The position numbers and the translations under genes are program-made. A DNA stretch of 64,000 nt, from contig NZ_FOCO01000015.1 of the NCBI RefSeq assembly GCF_900110135.1, positions 1 to 64,000 on the forward strand, read 5' to 3'. Under the pieces are notes generated by a model, which saw only the letters and a program-made list of their open reading frames with translations, was not told the DNA's origin and did not search any database. The DNA comes from Pseudorhodobacter antarcticus (GTDB taxonomy: Bacteria; Pseudomonadota; Alphaproteobacteria; Rhodobacterales; Rhodobacteraceae). The stretch's first letter is position 1, and every line of letters begins with the position of its first letter. This document shows, piece after piece, positions 2,907 through 64,000 of this stretch.

Positions 2907-4375
2907 AACATTTGACTGCGCTTATTCTGGCGGGAACGACCGCTGTGTTTGCCACGGCGGCGGCCGCTGAAACCAATATCCGCGTGGCGATGCAGTTGGA
3001 ACCGCCGAACCTTGACCCGACCAGCGGGGCCGCGCAAGCCGTGGATTCGGTGGTTTATTCCAATATCTTTGAAGGGTTGACGCGGTTCATGTCCGACGGA
3101 TCGGTCGTGCCGGGGCTGGCGGAAAGCTGGGAGATTGCAGCGGATGGGCTGACCTATACGTTCAAGCTGCGGCCCGGTGTGATGTTCCATGACGGCACCA
3201 CGATGGACGCCGAAGATGTGAAGTTCAGCCTCGATCGTGCCCGGGCCGAGGACAGCACCAATGCGCAAAAGGCGTTGTTTGCCAGCATCGCGGATGTGAC
3301 GGTGGTGGATCCGTTGACGGTGCAACTGACCCTGTCGGCCCCAAACGGCGCGATGTTGTTTAATCTGGCGTGGGGTGATGCAGTGATCGTGGCGCCGGAA
3401 AGCATTGCGGATATTGCGACCAAACCGATTGGCACTGGTGCGTTTACCTTCACAAATTGGGTGCAAGGCGACCGGATAGAGATTGCGCGCAACCCAAATT
3501 ATTGGGGCACGCCCGCCGCGATGGAAACGGCGACCTTCCGCTTTATTTCCGACCCAACAGCCGCCTTTGCCGCTGTGATGGCCGAGGATGTGGATGTGTT
3601 TGTGGGCTTTCCCGCCCCCGAAAACCTGCCCCAGTTTGAGGCGGACCCAAGGTTTCAAGTGTTGGTGGGCAACACCGAAGGCGAGACGATTTTGGCGATG
3701 AACAACGCCCGTGCGCCGTTTGACAACAAGCTGGTGCGCCAAGCCGTGGCCCATGCGATTGACCGCCAAGCGATTATTGACGGGGCGATGTACGGCATCG
3801 GCACGCCGATTGGTACGCATTTTGCGCCGCATAATCCCGATTATGTGGACCTGACCGGCCTGTCGAATTTTGACCCCGAAAAATCCAAGGCGCTGTTGGC
3901 CGAGGCGGGGTTTGCCGATGGGTTTACCACCACGTTGAAATTGCCACCGCCATCCTATGCGCGGCGTGGCGGCGAGATTATTGCCGCACAGTTGCGCGCC
4001 GTGGGCATCCAGACCGAGATTGAAAACCAAGAATGGGCGCAATGGTTGGAAACCACGTTCAAAGGCAAGGATTTTGGCCTGACGATTGTTAGCCATACCG
4101 AGCCGATGGACATTGGGATTTACGCCAACCCCGATTACTATTTCGGCTATAACAACCCCGATTTGCAGGCGATGATGACCACGCTCACATCCACCACCGA
4201 CCCGGCCGCGCGGTCGGAGATGTGGAAGCAAGCGCAGACTGTGATCGCCGAAGATTTCGTGAACGCTTATCTGTTTGAACTCGCGGTGCCCACGGTGGCA
4301 AAGGCGGGGATTGAAGGTTTGTGGTTGAACCAACCCACCGCCGCGATTGACCTGACGGGCGTGACTTGGCTGTAA
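2903..4375 (+). CDS. ABC transporter substrate-binding protein, family 5 (DppA/OppA-like)
   Basis: Periplasmic binding protein that captures a peptide-like or other amphipathic ligand for the importer encoded next to it. It has 490 residues with a clear Sec signal peptide (basic start, hydrophobic core, AAAAE cleavage region near residue 23). The family-5 features are present: EPPNLDPT near the mature N-terminus, and a VYSNIFEGLTRF segment followed by PGLAESWE. The start overlaps the M20 gene by four bases. A gap of 66 bases with a hairpin separates it from the permease, a common arrangement when the binding protein is made in excess. Confidence 0.92.
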   Translation: MKHLTALILAGTTAVFATAAAAETNIRVAMQLEPPNLDPTSGAAQAVDSVVYSNIFEGLTRFMSDGSVVPGLAESWEIAADGLTYTFKLRPGVMFHDGTTMDAEDVKFSLDRARAEDSTNAQKALFASIADVTVVDPLTVQLTLSAPNGAMLFNLAWGDAVIVAPESIADIATKPIGTGAFTFTNWVQGDRIEIARNPNYWGTPAAMETATFRFISDPTAAFAAVMAEDVDVFVGFPAPENLPQFEADPRFQVLVGNTEGETILAMNNARAPFDNKLVRQAVAHAIDRQAIIDGAMYGIGTPIGTHFAPHNPDYVDLTGLSNFDPEKSKALLAEAGFADGFTTTLKLPPPSYARRGGEIIAAQLRAVGIQTEIENQEWAQWLETTFKGKDFGLTIVSHTEPMDIGIYANPDYYFGYNNPDLQAMMTTLTSTTDPAARSEMWKQAQTVIAEDFVNAYLFELAVPTVAKAGIEGLWLNQPTAAIDLTGVTWL

Positions 4376-4383
4376 TTGAATGG

Positions 4384-4407
4384 GCGGCGCAGGGCACCCC
4401 GCGCCGC
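4384..4407 (+). other. Intercistronic hairpin between binding protein and permease genes
   Basis: Seven-base arms GCGGCGC (4384-4390) and GCGCCGC (4401-4407) enclose a ten-base GC-rich centre that can extend the stem by GGG/CCC. No T-run follows, so it is more likely an mRNA-stabilising or attenuating structure than a full terminator. It could raise binding-protein expression relative to the membrane genes. Confidence 0.5.
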
Positions 4408-4441
4408 TGTTGACTGACCCCAAGCGCGGAGCCGCCCAGCG

Positions 4442-5389
4442 ATGATACGCTACACCGCCACGCGCCTAATCTCGCTTTGTATCAGCTTGATTGTGGCGTC
4501 ACTGGTGATTTTCACAGTGGTGGAGGTGTTTCCGGGCGACCCTGCTGCCTATATGCTGGGGGTCAACGCGCAACCCGATACGGTGGCCGCGTTGCGGGCG
4601 GAATTGGGGTTGGATATGTCGCGGCCTGCCCGATACCTCGCTTGGGTTTCCGGCATGGTACAAGGCGATTTTGGCCAATCCTATACTTACCGAACGCCCG
4701 TGTCGCAGATGATTATGGACCGGATTTGGGTGTCGCTGCCACTAGCGCTGTTTGCGCTGGTGCTGACCGTATTAATCGCCTTTCCCGCCGGGATTTACGC
4801 AGCCAGCAGGCGCGGTGGCGCGGGGGATATTGGCGTGATGGGGGCCACGCAGCTGGGAGTCGCCATCCCGAATTTCTGGTTTGCGATGATCTTGGTTTTG
4901 ATATTCGCCATCCATCTGCGCTGGTTTTCGGCAGGCGGATTTCCGGGTTGGGACAAGGGGCTGTGGCCCGGTATCAAGGCGCTGATCTTGCCCGCTGTCG
5001 CACTGGCGCTGCCGCAAGCGGCGATACTTTCGCGCGTGATGCGGTCATCCTTGTTGGATATGCTGGGCGAAGATTTCATCCGCACCGCCCGCGCAAAGGG
5101 CCTGTCGCGCCGCCAAGCACTGTGGCGCCATGCCCTGCGCAATGCGATGATTCCGGTGTTGACCATCATCGGATTGCAATTTTCGTTCCTGCTGGCGGGT
5201 GGCATTGTGATTGAGCAGGTGTTTTTCCTGCCCGGCTTGGGACGGTTGATTTTCCAAGCCATTTCCGCCCGCGATTTGATTGTGGTGGAAAGCGTGGTGA
5301 TGCTGCTGGTGTTTTTGGTGATTGTGGTGAATTTCGCGGTCGATATCGCCTATGCCGCCGTAGACCCTCGACTGCGAGTGCGGCGATGA
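4442..5389 (+). CDS. ABC transporter permease, DppB type
   Basis: Inner-membrane permease, 315 residues, with six predicted membrane helices. It begins MIRYTATRLISLCISLIV, the standard DppB first helix. The EAA-type coupling loop is visible in the IRTARAKGLSRRQALWRHALRNA stretch (about residues 215-237), and the C-terminus ends VDPRLR as in the family. It forms a heterodimer with the DppC-type protein whose start overlaps its stop by four bases. Confidence 0.92.
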   Translation: MIRYTATRLISLCISLIVASLVIFTVVEVFPGDPAAYMLGVNAQPDTVAALRAELGLDMSRPARYLAWVSGMVQGDFGQSYTYRTPVSQMIMDRIWVSLPLALFALVLTVLIAFPAGIYAASRRGGAGDIGVMGATQLGVAIPNFWFAMILVLIFAIHLRWFSAGGFPGWDKGLWPGIKALILPAVALALPQAAILSRVMRSSLLDMLGEDFIRTARAKGLSRRQALWRHALRNAMIPVLTIIGLQFSFLLAGGIVIEQVFFLPGLGRLIFQAISARDLIVVESVVMLLVFLVIVVNFAVDIAYAAVDPRLRVRR

Positions 5390-59220: not shown

Positions 59221-59378
59221 ATGTGATATGCGAACCGCTATACACCAAGCGATCCCGCTGCGCAGGGGCAAAACGCATGTGTGTCGCGCCCTTAAATCTT
59301 CATCAATTCCGAACGCGCCCCTGCTCAAAATCAAGGCAAATTAATCATTAGGATTGTGGAAAACAGTCCAATTTCGCG

Positions 59379-60107
59379 TCAAACGTCAATCTTAATGCCC
59401 GCAACAGACGGATCAATCCGCCGCACAATGCGCAGCAAGCGGTCCAGTAAATGTGTCTCAACATAGGTTTTGTGAAACCGCGATGGGGCCAACAGTGACA
59501 ATGTGGCACCCAAGCGGTCCACTTCTGCCAGTCGCGCAATCCACGCGGAATAAGCCGCACCATCTTGCGCTTCAAACGCCGCTTGCGCCTGCACCCAAAC
59601 TGACCCATCGCCGCAAACGGCTTGTGGCATTTGGAAAGGCACCACATTACTTGTCTGCGCCGGCGGGGTGGGCATCCCTTGGCGATCTATAAAATCAGGC
59701 CCTATATTGGCCCAAACGCCCTTTGTGTCCGCCATAATCAGACCAAGGTCGATCCCATGCAGCGCCACCCTGCCCCGCGCTGCCCCGCGTGTTTCAACTA
59801 ACCACCCCATTGCCCGCAACTTTGCCATCTCGCGCTTCACCGTGCGCAAATCCACAGACCACAGCCGCGCTATGTCCTCTTGTCCCATCGACAATTCGTT
59901 CCGCTGCCAATTGTACCGGGTGGTAATCAACGACATCAGCCGCAAAACACGGCGTTGTGCGTGCTTGTCTTGTGCCAAAGCAAAAGCTGACAATGCTGAT
60001 AAAATATCATATTTTTTGGTCGCAGCATCACGCCCGACAGGTTTGGTAACCAGCACTGCTCTGTGCCTCTCATATGTTGGGGCTATTGCCCCGCCTGATT
60101 TAAACAA
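59379..60107 (-). CDS. DnaA-like plasmid replication initiator
   Basis: 242-residue replicase of the DnaA-like class defined in Rhodobacterales plasmids. Residues about 50-115 form a winged helix (LSMGQEDIARLWSVDLRTVKREM). Residues about 168-240 (VWVQAQAAFEAQDGAAYSAWI, then LSLLAPSRFHKTYV) mirror DnaA domain I, including the L-x-L-x-APS/N-x-F pattern. There is no AAA+ ATPase domain. It is divergent from parAB across a putative origin. The start is uncertain: the open frame begins with a TTG at 60107 without a clear ribosome binding site, and no better Met is near. Confidence 0.88.
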   Translation of the reverse strand: MFKSGGAIAPTYERHRAVLVTKPVGRDAATKKYDILSALSAFALAQDKHAQRRVLRLMSLITTRYNWQRNELSMGQEDIARLWSVDLRTVKREMAKLRAMGWLVETRGAARGRVALHGIDLGLIMADTKGVWANIGPDFIDRQGMPTPPAQTSNVVPFQMPQAVCGDGSVWVQAQAAFEAQDGAAYSAWIARLAEVDRLGATLSLLAPSRFHKTYVETHLLDRLLRIVRRIDPSVAGIKIDV

Positions 60108-60292
60108 GGATCTGTGTCCCTTTGGGTCTTAATTTTGCAGTTTGCCAACGTTCTTCGCCAAACCTGTCCTATTTGCGTCCTAAGGTTCGATTCTGTCAAG
60201 TCTCTTTGCCAGCCGCTCGGCGGCTTTGCGGCTGTTCTATTTCATATTCATTTTATAGATATAGGTTCATCGGTAATGGGGGGCGTAGAGTG

Positions 60293-60353
60293 TGTCACCC
60301 TATTCGTCGCTTTTGTCACCCTAAGGGTGGTGTTCTGGCCCTAACTGTCACCC
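60293..60353 (+). repeat. Three iteron-like direct repeats TGTCACCC
   Basis: Copies at 60293-60300, 60314-60321 and 60346-60353, spaced 21 and 32 bases apart (about two and three helical turns). The middle copy is part of the CACCCT-A-AGGGTG palindrome. They are candidate binding sites of the DnaA-like replicase. Confidence 0.55.
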
Positions 60354-60499
60354 CAAATAAAGTGTGTTTCTCTTGGGGGTGCCCCTAACATCGGATGGGG
60401 CCCTCACCCTTGTCCAGCAGTACCGATTCGCATCGTTGCTTCAGGTTTTGCAGGTGTTTTTCTGGGATCGTAAAAATTCCTGTTCATCATAACTCTGCT

Positions 60500-60516
60500 T
60501 TTGCATTTTGTGCAAA
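60500..60516. promoter_or_regulatory. Inverted repeat upstream of parA
   Basis: TTTGCA-TTTTG-TGCAAA, six-base arms, centred about 65 bases before the parA start. The position fits an operator for autoregulation by the N-terminal helix-turn-helix region of a type Ia ParA. Confidence 0.45.
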
Positions 60517-60572
60517 TCCGGCGTATTTGATAACGTAGCAGTTTTTAACGTCCACAAAAGAACGGATCGCGC

Positions 60573-61880
60573 ATGTACGACCATATCGACCTCGCCAACC
60601 TACAGGCACAGTCCCTCAAAATGCAAAGCCACATCCGGCGTCAAACCTTCTCGCCCGAGCTTGAAAAAACGCTGCGCCGATTTTCCAGTTGGGAAGTGTC
60701 TGAGTTGATCTTCAAGATCAACCAATCCACCTTTCGCGGCCGTCTTGCCGCCGAACCCGACCTGCCGGGCGGAGAGGTCGAACCCGATGGCCGCCAGCGC
60801 TGGTTCAGCCTGGAAGAGATTAACGAGCTGCGACGCAAGATGAAAATAAACCGCAAATCCTTGATGCCTGCGCGCCCGGCAGGCAAGCGCGCCTTTCGCG
60901 TGGCTATTGCCAACTTTAAAGGTGGTGCTGGCAAATCCACCGTGGCTTTGCATTTGGCCCATGCTGCGGCGCTTGACGGTTACCGCATTTTGGTTGTCGA
61001 CTTTGATCCGCAAGCCACCCTGTCCCATTCTATGGGCCTAAATGACGTGTCCGAAGAACATACAGTTTGGGGCATCATGGCGCGCGATTTGCTGCGCGAA
61101 ACCGATCGGATGAACGCCACCGCCACGGGCGCAGAAAGTGGCGTCACCCTGCCCCAGCGCCGTATTCCCGCCTCGATCCGCGACATGGGGTTGGGTGATT
61201 TGCGCGTAGCCGATTTCATCATGCCCACCAATTGGCCAACCATCGATATTGTTCCCAGCTGTGCTAACGCGGCTTTCGTGGAATTTGCCAGCGCGCAATA
61301 CCGTCACATGAACCCCGAATGGACGTTTTTTGGCGCCGTGTCGCGCTACCTCGACGCGCTGCCCGATGACAGTTACGACCTTATCATCTTCGATTGCCCC
61401 CCTGCTATTGGCTATCAATCCATGAACGCTGTTTTCGCGGCTGACATGCTTTATGTCCCTTCCGGCCCCGGTTATTGGGAATATGACAGCACCACCTCTT
61501 TCATTGGTCAGTTATCGGAGGCGTTGGCCGATTTGAACGCAGGCTTTGGTCAAACCTTTTCCGCGGAAAAGGTTTTGCTGCCCAAACAGTTTTGCGACAT
61601 CCGCTTTTTGATGACGCGGTATGAGCCGGGGAATGAGTTGCACCGCGCGATGTTTCAAGCGTTTGGTAAGGTTTTTGGCCCACATGTTGCAAAGCACCCG
61701 ATTGAGATGACCCGCGCGGTGGAACAGTCTGGGCGCTTTTTGTCATCGGTCTATGAAATTGATTACCGCATCATGACGCGGGAAACGTGGCGGCGAGCGC
61801 GGGCCACGTTTGATGGCGCCTATGAGGAATTTAAGGAAACTGTTGTGGCCGCATGGGACAAGCTGGAGAAAACATCATGA
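60573..61880 (+). CDS. parA: Plasmid partition ATPase ParA (type Ia)
   Basis: 435 residues. An N-terminal DNA-binding region (about 25-95, WFSLEEINELRRKM) precedes the deviant Walker ATPase with KGGAGKST (116-123), VVDFDPQATLSHSMG and LIIFDCPPAIG. The length is of the type Ia group that also represses its own operon. With ParB it segregates the replicon at cell division. The gene contains one copy of the parS-like palindrome (61552-61575) near codon 330. It overlaps parB by four bases. Confidence 0.94.
   Translation: MYDHIDLANLQAQSLKMQSHIRRQTFSPELEKTLRRFSSWEVSELIFKINQSTFRGRLAAEPDLPGGEVEPDGRQRWFSLEEINELRRKMKINRKSLMPARPAGKRAFRVAIANFKGGAGKSTVALHLAHAAALDGYRILVVDFDPQATLSHSMGLNDVSEEHTVWGIMARDLLRETDRMNATATGAESGVTLPQRRIPASIRDMGLGDLRVADFIMPTNWPTIDIVPSCANAAFVEFASAQYRHMNPEWTFFGAVSRYLDALPDDSYDLIIFDCPPAIGYQSMNAVFAADMLYVPSGPGYWEYDSTTSFIGQLSEALADLNAGFGQTFSAEKVLLPKQFCDIRFLMTRYEPGNELHRAMFQAFGKVFGPHVAKHPIEMTRAVEQSGRFLSSVYEIDYRIMTRETWRRARATFDGAYEEFKETVVAAWDKLEKTS
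61552..61575. repeat. parS-like palindrome, copy 1 (inside parA)
   Basis: Perfect 24-base palindrome with core CCTTTTCCGCGGAAAAGG flanked by AAA and TTT. Identical to the cores at 61932 and 63012. Such conserved palindromes in DnaA-like replicons are regarded as centromeric anchors for ParB. Confidence 0.8.
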
Positions 61881-63004
61881 GCAAGAAACGCCGCATGTTT
61901 GATATTGATCTGCCCGAAGATGACGGGGCGGAAACCTTTTCCGCGGAAAAGGTTTTGCCCCGCGCGGGTGTGGGCGTAGGTGTGGGCGCGGGCGGCGAAG
62001 GGCGGCGCGGCCCTATGGCGTCTGCCATTGTTGAAAACGCCGACAGCTTGCGCAGCCGGGACGAGGTTGCAGCCCAAATTCGCTCTGAGAATGACGCGTT
62101 GGCGCATGAACATGTGCGGCTGAAGCAGCAGGGTTTGATCGTTGATTTGATCGCGCTGGACCAAATTGAAACCTACAAACTGACCCGCGACCGTCACAAA
62201 GGCTTTGATGAAGAGTTGGGCGAGTTGGTGGAATCGATCCGCGATCTGGGCCTGTCCAACCCCATTCGGGTGGAGCAGCGCAGCGATGGGCGCTATGAAT
62301 TGGTGCAGGGTTACCGCCGTATTCAAGCCTATACGCGGTTGTTGGAAGAGACGGGGGATACGGAAAGATATGGGCGTATTCCTGCGGGCATCATGGCAAA
62401 AGGGGCGGCGTTAGAGACGCTTTACCGCCGGATGGTGGATGAAAATCTGGTGCGCAAGGACATCTCGCTTGCGGAAATGGCGCAGCTGGCGGTTGATTAT
62501 GCGGGGCATCCGCTGACTGATATTTCCGACCCGGACAAGGCGGTGGCGTTGTTGTTCAAATCGGCCAGCTATTCCAAGCGCAGCTATATCCGCAGCTTTA
62601 TCCCTGTGGTCAATCGTTTGGGTGAGGTGTTGCAATTTGTGCATGAGGTGCCGCGCGCGTTGGGCTTGGCGCTGTCGGCGCGGATGGAGGAGATGCCGGG
62701 GATAGCGGCTGCGATCAAGTCCGAACTGGCGGATTGGGATAACCGATCCGTGGAGGATGAGTTGACCGTTTTGCGGCGCTTTGCGGGGGAGATGCCGGAG
62801 CAAAAAGCGCCGCCGCTGCGGCCTGGACGGCCTACGGCCGAGGCGAAGGCCAAGACCAGTTTTCAACTTTCGCGACCGCAAGGGGCGGCGAAATGTGTGG
62901 CCGGGGCAGGGCGTTTGGAGATCAGATTGGCGCGCGATTTTTCCACCATCGACCGCCGAAAATTGGAGGCCGCGGTGCGCAGTTTGCTGGACCAAATTGA
63001 GTGA
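61877..63004 (+). CDS. parB: Plasmid partition protein ParB
   Basis: 375 residues. After a low-complexity Gly/Val-rich N-terminus (about 29-46) comes the ParB/Srx-type domain: GLSNPIRVEQRSDGRYELVQGYRRIQAY (about 125-152), then ENLVRKDISLAEMAQLAVDYA and a helix-turn-helix region with SKRSYIRSFI. It binds parS and stimulates ParA. The ATG at 61877 overlaps the parA stop and is preceded by GGAG; residues 20-27 are encoded by parS copy 2. Confidence 0.93.
   Translation: MSKKRRMFDIDLPEDDGAETFSAEKVLPRAGVGVGVGAGGEGRRGPMASAIVENADSLRSRDEVAAQIRSENDALAHEHVRLKQQGLIVDLIALDQIETYKLTRDRHKGFDEELGELVESIRDLGLSNPIRVEQRSDGRYELVQGYRRIQAYTRLLEETGDTERYGRIPAGIMAKGAALETLYRRMVDENLVRKDISLAEMAQLAVDYAGHPLTDISDPDKAVALLFKSASYSKRSYIRSFIPVVNRLGEVLQFVHEVPRALGLALSARMEEMPGIAAAIKSELADWDNRSVEDELTVLRRFAGEMPEQKAPPLRPGRPTAEAKAKTSFQLSRPQGAAKCVAGAGRLEIRLARDFSTIDRRKLEAAVRSLLDQIE
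61932..61955. repeat. parS-like palindrome, copy 2 (inside the 5' end of parB)
   Basis: Same perfect 24-base palindrome as copy 1, 380 bases downstream of it. It encodes TFSAEKVL in ParB, the same peptide that copy 1 encodes in ParA. Confidence 0.8.
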
Positions 63005-63011
63005 GGCGATG

Positions 63012-63043
63012 CCCAAAACCTTTTCCGCGGAAAAGGTTTTGGG
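63012..63043. repeat. parS-like palindrome, copy 3 (just after parB)
   Basis: Longest copy: perfect over 32 bases, the 24-base palindrome extended by CCCA/TGGG. It starts seven bases after the parB stop. A 17-codon open frame with an ATG at 63009 reads through it in the same frame as the other copies; that frame is probably not a gene. Confidence 0.8.
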
Positions 63044-63121
63044 GTTGAGGTGGGCAAAATAGATGATCTAGATGTAGTGGTTAGAATTTAATGCGCCGCT
63101 ACATGATGATTGCATTTGAAA

Positions 63122-63155
63122 CGGCGGAACGCCCATAAACAGGGCCTAACCGCCG
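63122..63155. terminator. Probable terminator between parB and the DUF4387 gene
   Basis: Stem CGGCGG (63122-63127)/CCGCCG (63150-63155) with an inner GCCC (63131-63134)/GGGC (63142-63145) pairing. On the plus strand it is followed after ten bases by a short T-run. It lies between convergent genes, so it could serve both strands. Confidence 0.5.
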
Positions 63156-63176
63156 CAATAGTGCATGTTTTGGACG

Positions 63177-63476
63177 TTAAACTTGATATTCGGCCAGCAG
63201 GGTGGCCCAAGCCGCGCCATGCATGTCGCGGTCTTTGCTGTTGCCTTGCACCACAGGGCGCGGAAACGAGAATTTGATCACGTTCAAATCCGTGATGTCA
63301 AAACGCTTTAAGGCCGTCACGGGCTGCTGATAAAGGGCGGCAATTGCGCCAGTGTCCAAAGCGCCGCGCAACTGGTCAAAAGCGGCACTGTTGCCGCAGA
63401 AAACATCAATGGTGACCCAGAAAGGCCCCGCGTTTTTGGAGCGGACTTTTTGTGCGATTACGTCCACTTGGGTCAT
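63177..63476 (-). CDS. DUF4387 family protein
   Basis: 99 residues, start MTQVDVIAQKVRSKNAGPFWVTID, matching the DUF4387 family, whose members lie directly after AtuA/DUF1446 genes and are thought to be the small partner of that enzyme. KFSFPRPVVQGNSKDRDMHGAAWATLL is the conserved C-terminal block. The start overlaps the stop of the upstream AtuA-like gene. The biochemical role is undefined. Confidence 0.85.
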   Translation of the reverse strand: MTQVDVIAQKVRSKNAGPFWVTIDVFCGNSAAFDQLRGALDTGAIAALYQQPVTALKRFDITDLNVIKFSFPRPVVQGNSKDRDMHGAAWATLLAEYQV

Positions 63477-64000
63477 GGCGACACCTGCGTGGTGACAAGG
63501 CTAAAGGCCTGCATAGGGTCATCCAGATGCATCACATGGTTCAGGGCAAATTCATACAGCGCGCCGCGATCGGTTCCGGCGGGGGAGTAGGGAAAGGCGA
63601 AAGTTGGCAGCTCCTCGCCCACCGTAAGCGGATAATGCAGCAGGTGTGGGTTGGCGAGTTTGCCGATTTCGGAGGCAATGGCTTGGGTTGGGGCGGTGAT
63701 GATCAACAGCACCCCCACCTCTACCGGGGTTCCCGTGCGGTTTTCCATTGCGCCCAAGGTGGCATTTGCCCCGATCAAGCGGAAATCCAGATCATAGGTT
63801 GCGGGGTCAAGGCCCATGCGTTTGGTGATGAGCGCTATTAAAAACGCACCCAGTTTTTCGACCCAAAGCGCCGCGTTAGAGACATAATGCGCGTCGCGCA
63901 GCACGGCAAGGAGGGTGGTTTGATAGCCTGCAGCCCGCGCGCCTTCCAGCTTTATCGTGTAAGGACCCGGCACCCATTTGGAGCCTGTGGCGCGCACGCG
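63473..64000 (-). CDS. AtuA-like (DUF1446) protein, C-terminal part, continues beyond the window
   Basis: The last 176 residues are visible and the frame is open to base 64000. RATGSKWVPGPYTIKLEGARAAGY and LRDAHYVSN are conserved segments of the acyclic-terpene-utilisation AtuA family. Together with DUF4387 these proteins often accompany citronellate/isovalerate-type or other CoA-linked catabolic genes. The N-terminal part needed to judge integrity is outside the window. Confidence 0.85.
   Translation of the reverse strand, partial: RVRATGSKWVPGPYTIKLEGARAAGYQTTLLAVLRDAHYVSNAALWVEKLGAFLIALITKRMGLDPATYDLDFRLIGANATLGAMENRTGTPVEVGVLLIITAPTQAIASEIGKLANPHLLHYPLTVGEELPTFAFPYSPAGTDRGALYEFALNHVMHLDDPMQAFSLVTTQVSP

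Follow-up and report, generated by a model that had tools for sequence, protein, structure and literature searches.

How a centromere and the protein that binds it change their specificity jointly, when several sites must change at the same time and some of them are coding, is an open question. It is raised by the parAB locus of Pseudorhodobacter antarcticus, where three identical palindromes lie in and next to the partition genes. The whole stretch of 64,000 nucleotides that was analysed is called the window here. Our analysis indicates that the palindromes are very likely the parS sites of the ParABS system of a large plasmid-like Pseudorhodobacter replicon of the DnaA-like kind and that they co-evolve with ParB. 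This reading was built on the sequence and positions of the sites, their conservation and concerted change, the constraint on them at the DNA level and the way they track the ParB phylogeny.

The parA gene (60573..61880, forward strand) encodes a ParA-type ATPase of 435 aa with an N-terminal extension (Pfam AAA_31, E 3e-27). As in ParABS systems, this gene for a ParA-family Walker ATPase lies directly upstream of parB (61877..63004, forward strand). The ParB protein of 375 aa has a ParB N-terminal (CTPase-type) domain, detected above the cut-off of Pfam ParB_N, and a helix-turn-helix (HTH) fold in the structure model and its fold matches, and it was classified as an HTH-type ParB. Its start was placed at the ATG at 61877, which overlaps the parA stop in the motif ATGA. 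A longer start at 61853, present in the list of open reading frames, found no support in the relatives. Divergently from parAB, a DnaA-like replicase is encoded at 59379..60107 on the reverse strand (Pfam DnaA_N, PF11638, 25.0 bits against a cut-off of 24.6), and annotated relatives show the same divergent arrangement. With this replicase and the conserved palindromes in the module, the locus belongs to the DnaA-like replicons, as had been proposed in the sequence-only reading, and the DnaA_N-domain replicase adjoining parAB confirms it. In RepABC replicons repC follows repAB; no forward-strand gene was found after parB within the window, and the neighbouring replicase is DnaA-like and divergent, not RepC.

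The module was found on contig C37 (78.5 kb) of the source genome, and in P. turbinis the equivalent module sits on a 1.58-Mb replicon. The replicon carrying the window's parAB could be a chromid. Between the replicase and parA, the direct repeat TGTCACC(C) occurs three times, at 60293, 60314 and 60346, and is partly conserved in the congeners; these are candidate iterons of the replication origin. Upstream of parA, an inverted repeat TTTGCA-N5-TGCAAA at 60500-60516 lies in a stretch that is conserved in P. turbinis and P. aquimaris. This repeat is a candidate operator.

A search of the window with the core CCTTTTCCGCGGAAAAGG found exact matches at 61555-61572, 61935-61952 and 63019-63036 and, besides these, no match with up to 3 mismatches (0.03 expected from shuffles). 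Self-complementarity is perfect over 24 bp at 61552-61575, over 24 bp at 61932-61955 and over 32 bp at 63012-63043. Site 1, AAACCTTTTCCGCGGAAAAGGTTT, is contained in the 3' end of parA, where it spans approximately codons 327-335 and occupies the slot at -313 relative to the start of parB. The identical 24-bp site 2 falls within the 5' end of parB, at approximately codons 19-27 (slot +67). Site 3 follows the parB stop (63004) at a distance of 7 bp, and an equivalent palindrome directly 3' of parB was observed in most relatives. The centres are 380 bp and then 1,084 bp apart. The earlier sequence-only reading had described three perfect palindromes with the same core, 24, 24 and 32 bases long, located inside parA, inside parB and directly after parB with a spacing of 380 and about 1,080 bases; our search reproduced their coordinates, lengths and placement. 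When 200 windows of 64 kb were simulated (first-order Markov), a perfect palindrome of at least 24 bp turned up in just 3 of them, and chance therefore does not explain three identical ones inside 1.5 kb. Around the module at 59300-63980, no further site was detected when up to 4 mismatches to the C-type core or up to 5 to the T-type core were allowed; the two types are described below.

When the search was extended to the genome of 3.79 Mb, the three copies at parAB were the only exact ones, giving a cluster of palindromic sites at the parAB locus as in ParABS systems. Beyond these, the only matches were one with a single mismatch and two with 2. The first two of these near-matches lie in an ABC-transporter operon and in a pyruvate dehydrogenase gene (open reading frames read by eye). 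The near-matches were rejected as extra sites, as they have no counterpart in the two congeners sharing the palindrome. A scatter of the 24-mer through the chromosome, which had been named as evidence against a centromere, was looked for in the 3.79 Mb and did not appear. The parB lineage of the window is present in 3 of 9 Pseudorhodobacter genomes, and P. turbinis and P. aquimaris each carry, like the source genome, exactly three copies at the same slots. Five of the 6 remaining congeners have neither such a parB nor the palindrome, and the sixth has a parB that is 71% identical and is not accompanied by this palindrome. The 18-mer was absent when one genome from each of 295 other genera of the family was searched.

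The sequence shared by the three copies is about 26 bp long and is translated into the same in-frame peptide in both genes, as could be expected of a mobile or repetitive (REP-like) element inserted into the genes. A dispersed repeat was rejected by the genome-wide count, and no further exact copy is present in the genome or in the two close relatives. In addition, the slots hold other palindromes across the order, and the ParA slot is in an ungapped stretch of the alignment and is therefore not an insertion. A REP-like element is thus extremely improbable.

About 100 related parAB loci of DnaA-like replicons, taken from plasmids and genomes, were then compared. They share one palindrome scheme at the same slots, with a CCGCGG centre and variable arms. 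The great majority of the relatives have the C-type CTTCCCCGCGGGGAAG, and the T-type CTTTTCCGCGGAAAAG occurs only in the window and the two congeners. Other types are CTTATCCGCGGATAAG in Loktanella, CTTACCCGCGGGTAAG in Ruegeria, GTCCCCGCGGGGAC in Phaeobacter, Salipiger and Qingshengfaniella (longer in some) and GTTCCCCGCGGGGAAC in Sulfitobacter and Pseudosulfitobacter. Measured from the start of parB, the recurring slots are at about -1402, -1104, -313, +67 and +490, with a further one directly behind the gene. Since several lineages miss one or another of these slots, none is indispensable by itself. On a Salipiger plasmid (L113), 15 perfect TGTCCCCGCGGGGACA palindromes were found within about 3.4 kb of parAB, forming a much larger centromere-like array. 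Sulfitobacter indolifex pDSM14862_d (L116, typed DnaA-like-II) has a different palindrome, GGTAACCCATGGGTTACC, just after parB, which is a candidate site of that group.

The slot at -1402 places a palindrome upstream of parA, near the promoter region, in other lineages, and the ParB-superfamily regulators KorB and VirB match the fold of ParB. Both observations would agree with palindromes that function mainly as operators, bound by ParB or ParA and autoregulating the parAB/replicase operon, and not as the partition site. However, the window has no copy upstream of parA, its three sites are within or after the genes, and the separate TTTGCA..TGCAAA repeat before parA would fit an operator better. 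A mainly regulatory function is therefore unlikely. The palindromes may have a dual role as operator and centromere.

The relation between the palindromes and the binding protein was followed on a quick ParB tree, with branch support from SH-aLRT only. A C-type site with at most 1 mismatch accompanies every one of the 87 close C-type ParB loci. On the tree, the palindrome labels (six types and none) need 6 changes, which is the minimum possible, and the palindrome type follows the ParB phylogeny without conflict. The T-type clade is fully supported, sister to the C-type locus L019 and nested in the C-type diversity. Because it nests there, the T-type is derived, and all three sites were changed on both arms.

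This pattern also bears on the possibility that the palindromes function at the RNA level, as hairpins or terminators of the parAB transcript. Perfect inverted repeats are able to fold strongly, and site 3 adjoins the parB stop. Site 3 has no U-tract after it, however. In addition, sites are found within coding frames, in relatives also ahead of parA, and in the genome G034, described below, in every gene orientation. Moreover, the exact sequence is conserved and switches by ParB clade, which fits recognition by a protein better than base pairing alone. A function as hairpin or terminator has hardly any probability, and the reading as parS sites is followed here.

The codon choice inside the coding slots is, judged from codon counts, almost completely fixed at the DNA level. 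In the parA slot, Pro is encoded by CCC in 85 of 86 cases, Thr by ACG in 55 of 56 and Gly by GGG in 84 of 86; in the parB slot, Ala is encoded by GCG (80/85) and Gly by GGG (83/84). The background use is 42% for CCC, 38% for GCG and 26% for GGG. The slot peptide of ParA varies with the palindrome type and reads TFSAEKV, TFPAGKV, TLSADKV, VPAGT or LPSGT. Because two sites are within reading frames, the change from the C-type to the T-type rewrote the same peptide in ParA and in ParB, from TFPAGKV to TFSAEKV. Site 2 encodes part of a ParB segment, residues 13-40, for which the structure model has very low confidence and where a palindrome-encoded peptide can be tolerated. A former slot at -1104 in parA, CTGCCGGGCGGAGAGG at 60762..60777 near codon 64, shows decay in the window as well as in the two close relatives. 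At this position most C-type relatives retain a C-type palindrome that is near-perfect and strongly constrained at the synonymous level. The decay would fit an unconverted site that became useless by the specificity switch. Taken together, the slots conserved across the order, the types that track the ParB phylogeny and the fixed slot codons support the earlier view of the parAB palindromes as a centromere, here a predicted parS.

The ParB structure model as a whole matches the folds of Noc, ParB and KorB, with VirB also among the matches, and its HTH part matches the SopB-DNA (Z 7.0) and P1 ParB-DNA (Z 5-6) complexes. The recognition helix is predicted at residues 232-248. Residue 232 is Tyr with CTT arms, Arg with TGT arms and Lys with GTT arms. 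Residue 233 is Gln in most C-type ParBs and Ser in the T-type and Loktanella. Among the residues of T-type ParBs that C-type ParBs hardly ever have are I149, Q150, T153, M173 and L198. Ser233 was rejected as the single specificity residue and kept as a candidate only: it is also found in three C-type ParBs (L019, L046 and L071), and hence no single residue suffices and the recognition-helix residues do not correspond one-to-one to the palindrome types. These links between ParB residues and palindromes appear as correlations along few lineages.

From these data, binding by ParB, a function in partition and a change of compatibility are predicted. A ParB dimer would read the 24-bp palindrome via two helix-turn-helix domains, with one recognition helix per half-site. 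As in known ParABS systems, loaded ParB would assemble a partition complex across the roughly 1.5-kb parAB region, and the ParA ATPase would then move this complex. The lineage would have inherited CTTCCCCGCGGGGAAG sites, with site and ParB co-evolving, and in the ancestor of the three Pseudorhodobacter species both arms of the three sites would have changed to CTTTTCCGCGGAAAAG together with changes in ParB. The concerted site change probably gave a new partition specificity, and the palindromes would then play a part in defining the compatibility group.

A relative of this ParB was observed in another setting in the genome G034. It is 57% identical over residues 88-374 (G034:C1:3419968-3420954, minus strand; L123 about 3469-4455), and it lacks the conserved stretch that separates the slot from residue 87. 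Its gene has no adjacent parA and is next to a LuxR-family gene, and it keeps a palindrome in its 5' end and another just after its stop. The genome contains 33 exact C-type palindromes. Of these, 32 lie on a 4.15-Mb chromosome contig, which also holds the orphan gene and whose beginning was read by eye as dnaA, dnaN and recF. Most of the sites examined are in intergenic gaps of all orientations (simple ORF heuristic). The positions of the sites show a weak preference for the dnaA side (Rayleigh p about 0.03, 23 clusters). The only congener of G034 that was compared (83% complete) has neither the orphan parB nor the palindromes. Because a ParB without parA co-occurs with 33 copies of the palindrome, the palindrome is tied to ParB itself. 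As a guess, the orphan ParB may have a Noc-like or VirB-like role. In G035, five scattered C-type palindromes with extended AAAAC..GTTT flanks were found on the 3.79-Mb contig C1, and parB with two exact sites is on the separate contig C3. The description of the palindromes as a compact centromere accordingly holds for the P. antarcticus genome and is not universal, with the sister palindrome of G034 dispersed alongside an orphan ParB.

A farther-reaching proposal combines both observations. The replacement of CTTCCCCGCGGGGAAG by CTTTTCCGCGGAAAAG would be a complete natural re-specification of a centromere, passing through a permissive intermediate like L019 and creating a new compatibility group, and the G034 ParB, freed from ParA, would have become a chromosome-wide Noc-/VirB-like binder with 33 sites. 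We regard this combined proposal as tentative and rather doubtful. The system offers at least 6 palindrome types on one scheme, one recent switch, the close unswitched sister L019 and a trace in the proteins, and the switch is directly testable with a few ParB variants and oligonucleotides. It also suggests a sequence rule that predicts the compatibility of large Rhodobacterales replicons.

Palindromes have reportedly been proposed as centromeric anchors in the DnaA-like replicons of Rhodobacterales, and the element is thus of a known kind. What is new is that the sites changed in concert and that this change left its mark on two proteins; we know of no other report of this. In the literature searched, where the coverage was limited and absence proves little, no relevant paper on the T-type core was found. 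The window resembles the DnaA-like modules of Rhodobacterales in the divergent arrangement of the DnaA-like replicase and parAB and in its conserved palindromes. Its ParB is nearer to that of a plasmid typed DnaA-like-I (43.6%) than to that of one typed DnaA-like-II (33%; typing from PMC9025767). Unlike in these typed plasmids, the palindrome is of a derived type, with a different sequence, that is confined to three Pseudorhodobacter species.

In the RepABC replicons of the same order, palindromes are established or proposed as partition anchors (PMC5613091, PMC9426580, PMC3910554), and two compatibility groups are set apart there by a reciprocal exchange at a single position (PMC5613091). The window is comparable in its perfect palindromes bound by ParB/RepB, with the binding predicted here, in the symmetric exchanges between groups and in the co-evolution with the partition proteins. 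It differs in that the module has no RepC and that the sites are 24-32 bp long, have a CCGCGG centre and lie in coding sequence in two cases. With the P1/F type Ia systems, the window shares a long ParA with an N-terminal extension, an HTH ParB and a site just downstream of parB, whereas 2 of its 3 sites are inside the par genes and are simple palindromes instead of P1 boxes or sopC tandem repeats. For the switch between ParB and Noc, permissive changes tend to precede specificity changes (Jalal et al. 2020, PMC7383237). Here, too, a palindromic site changed alongside changes near the recognition helix, and a permissive intermediate is plausible. In contrast to that switch, the one described here is deduced from natural plasmid-type ParBs, and several sites changed in concert.
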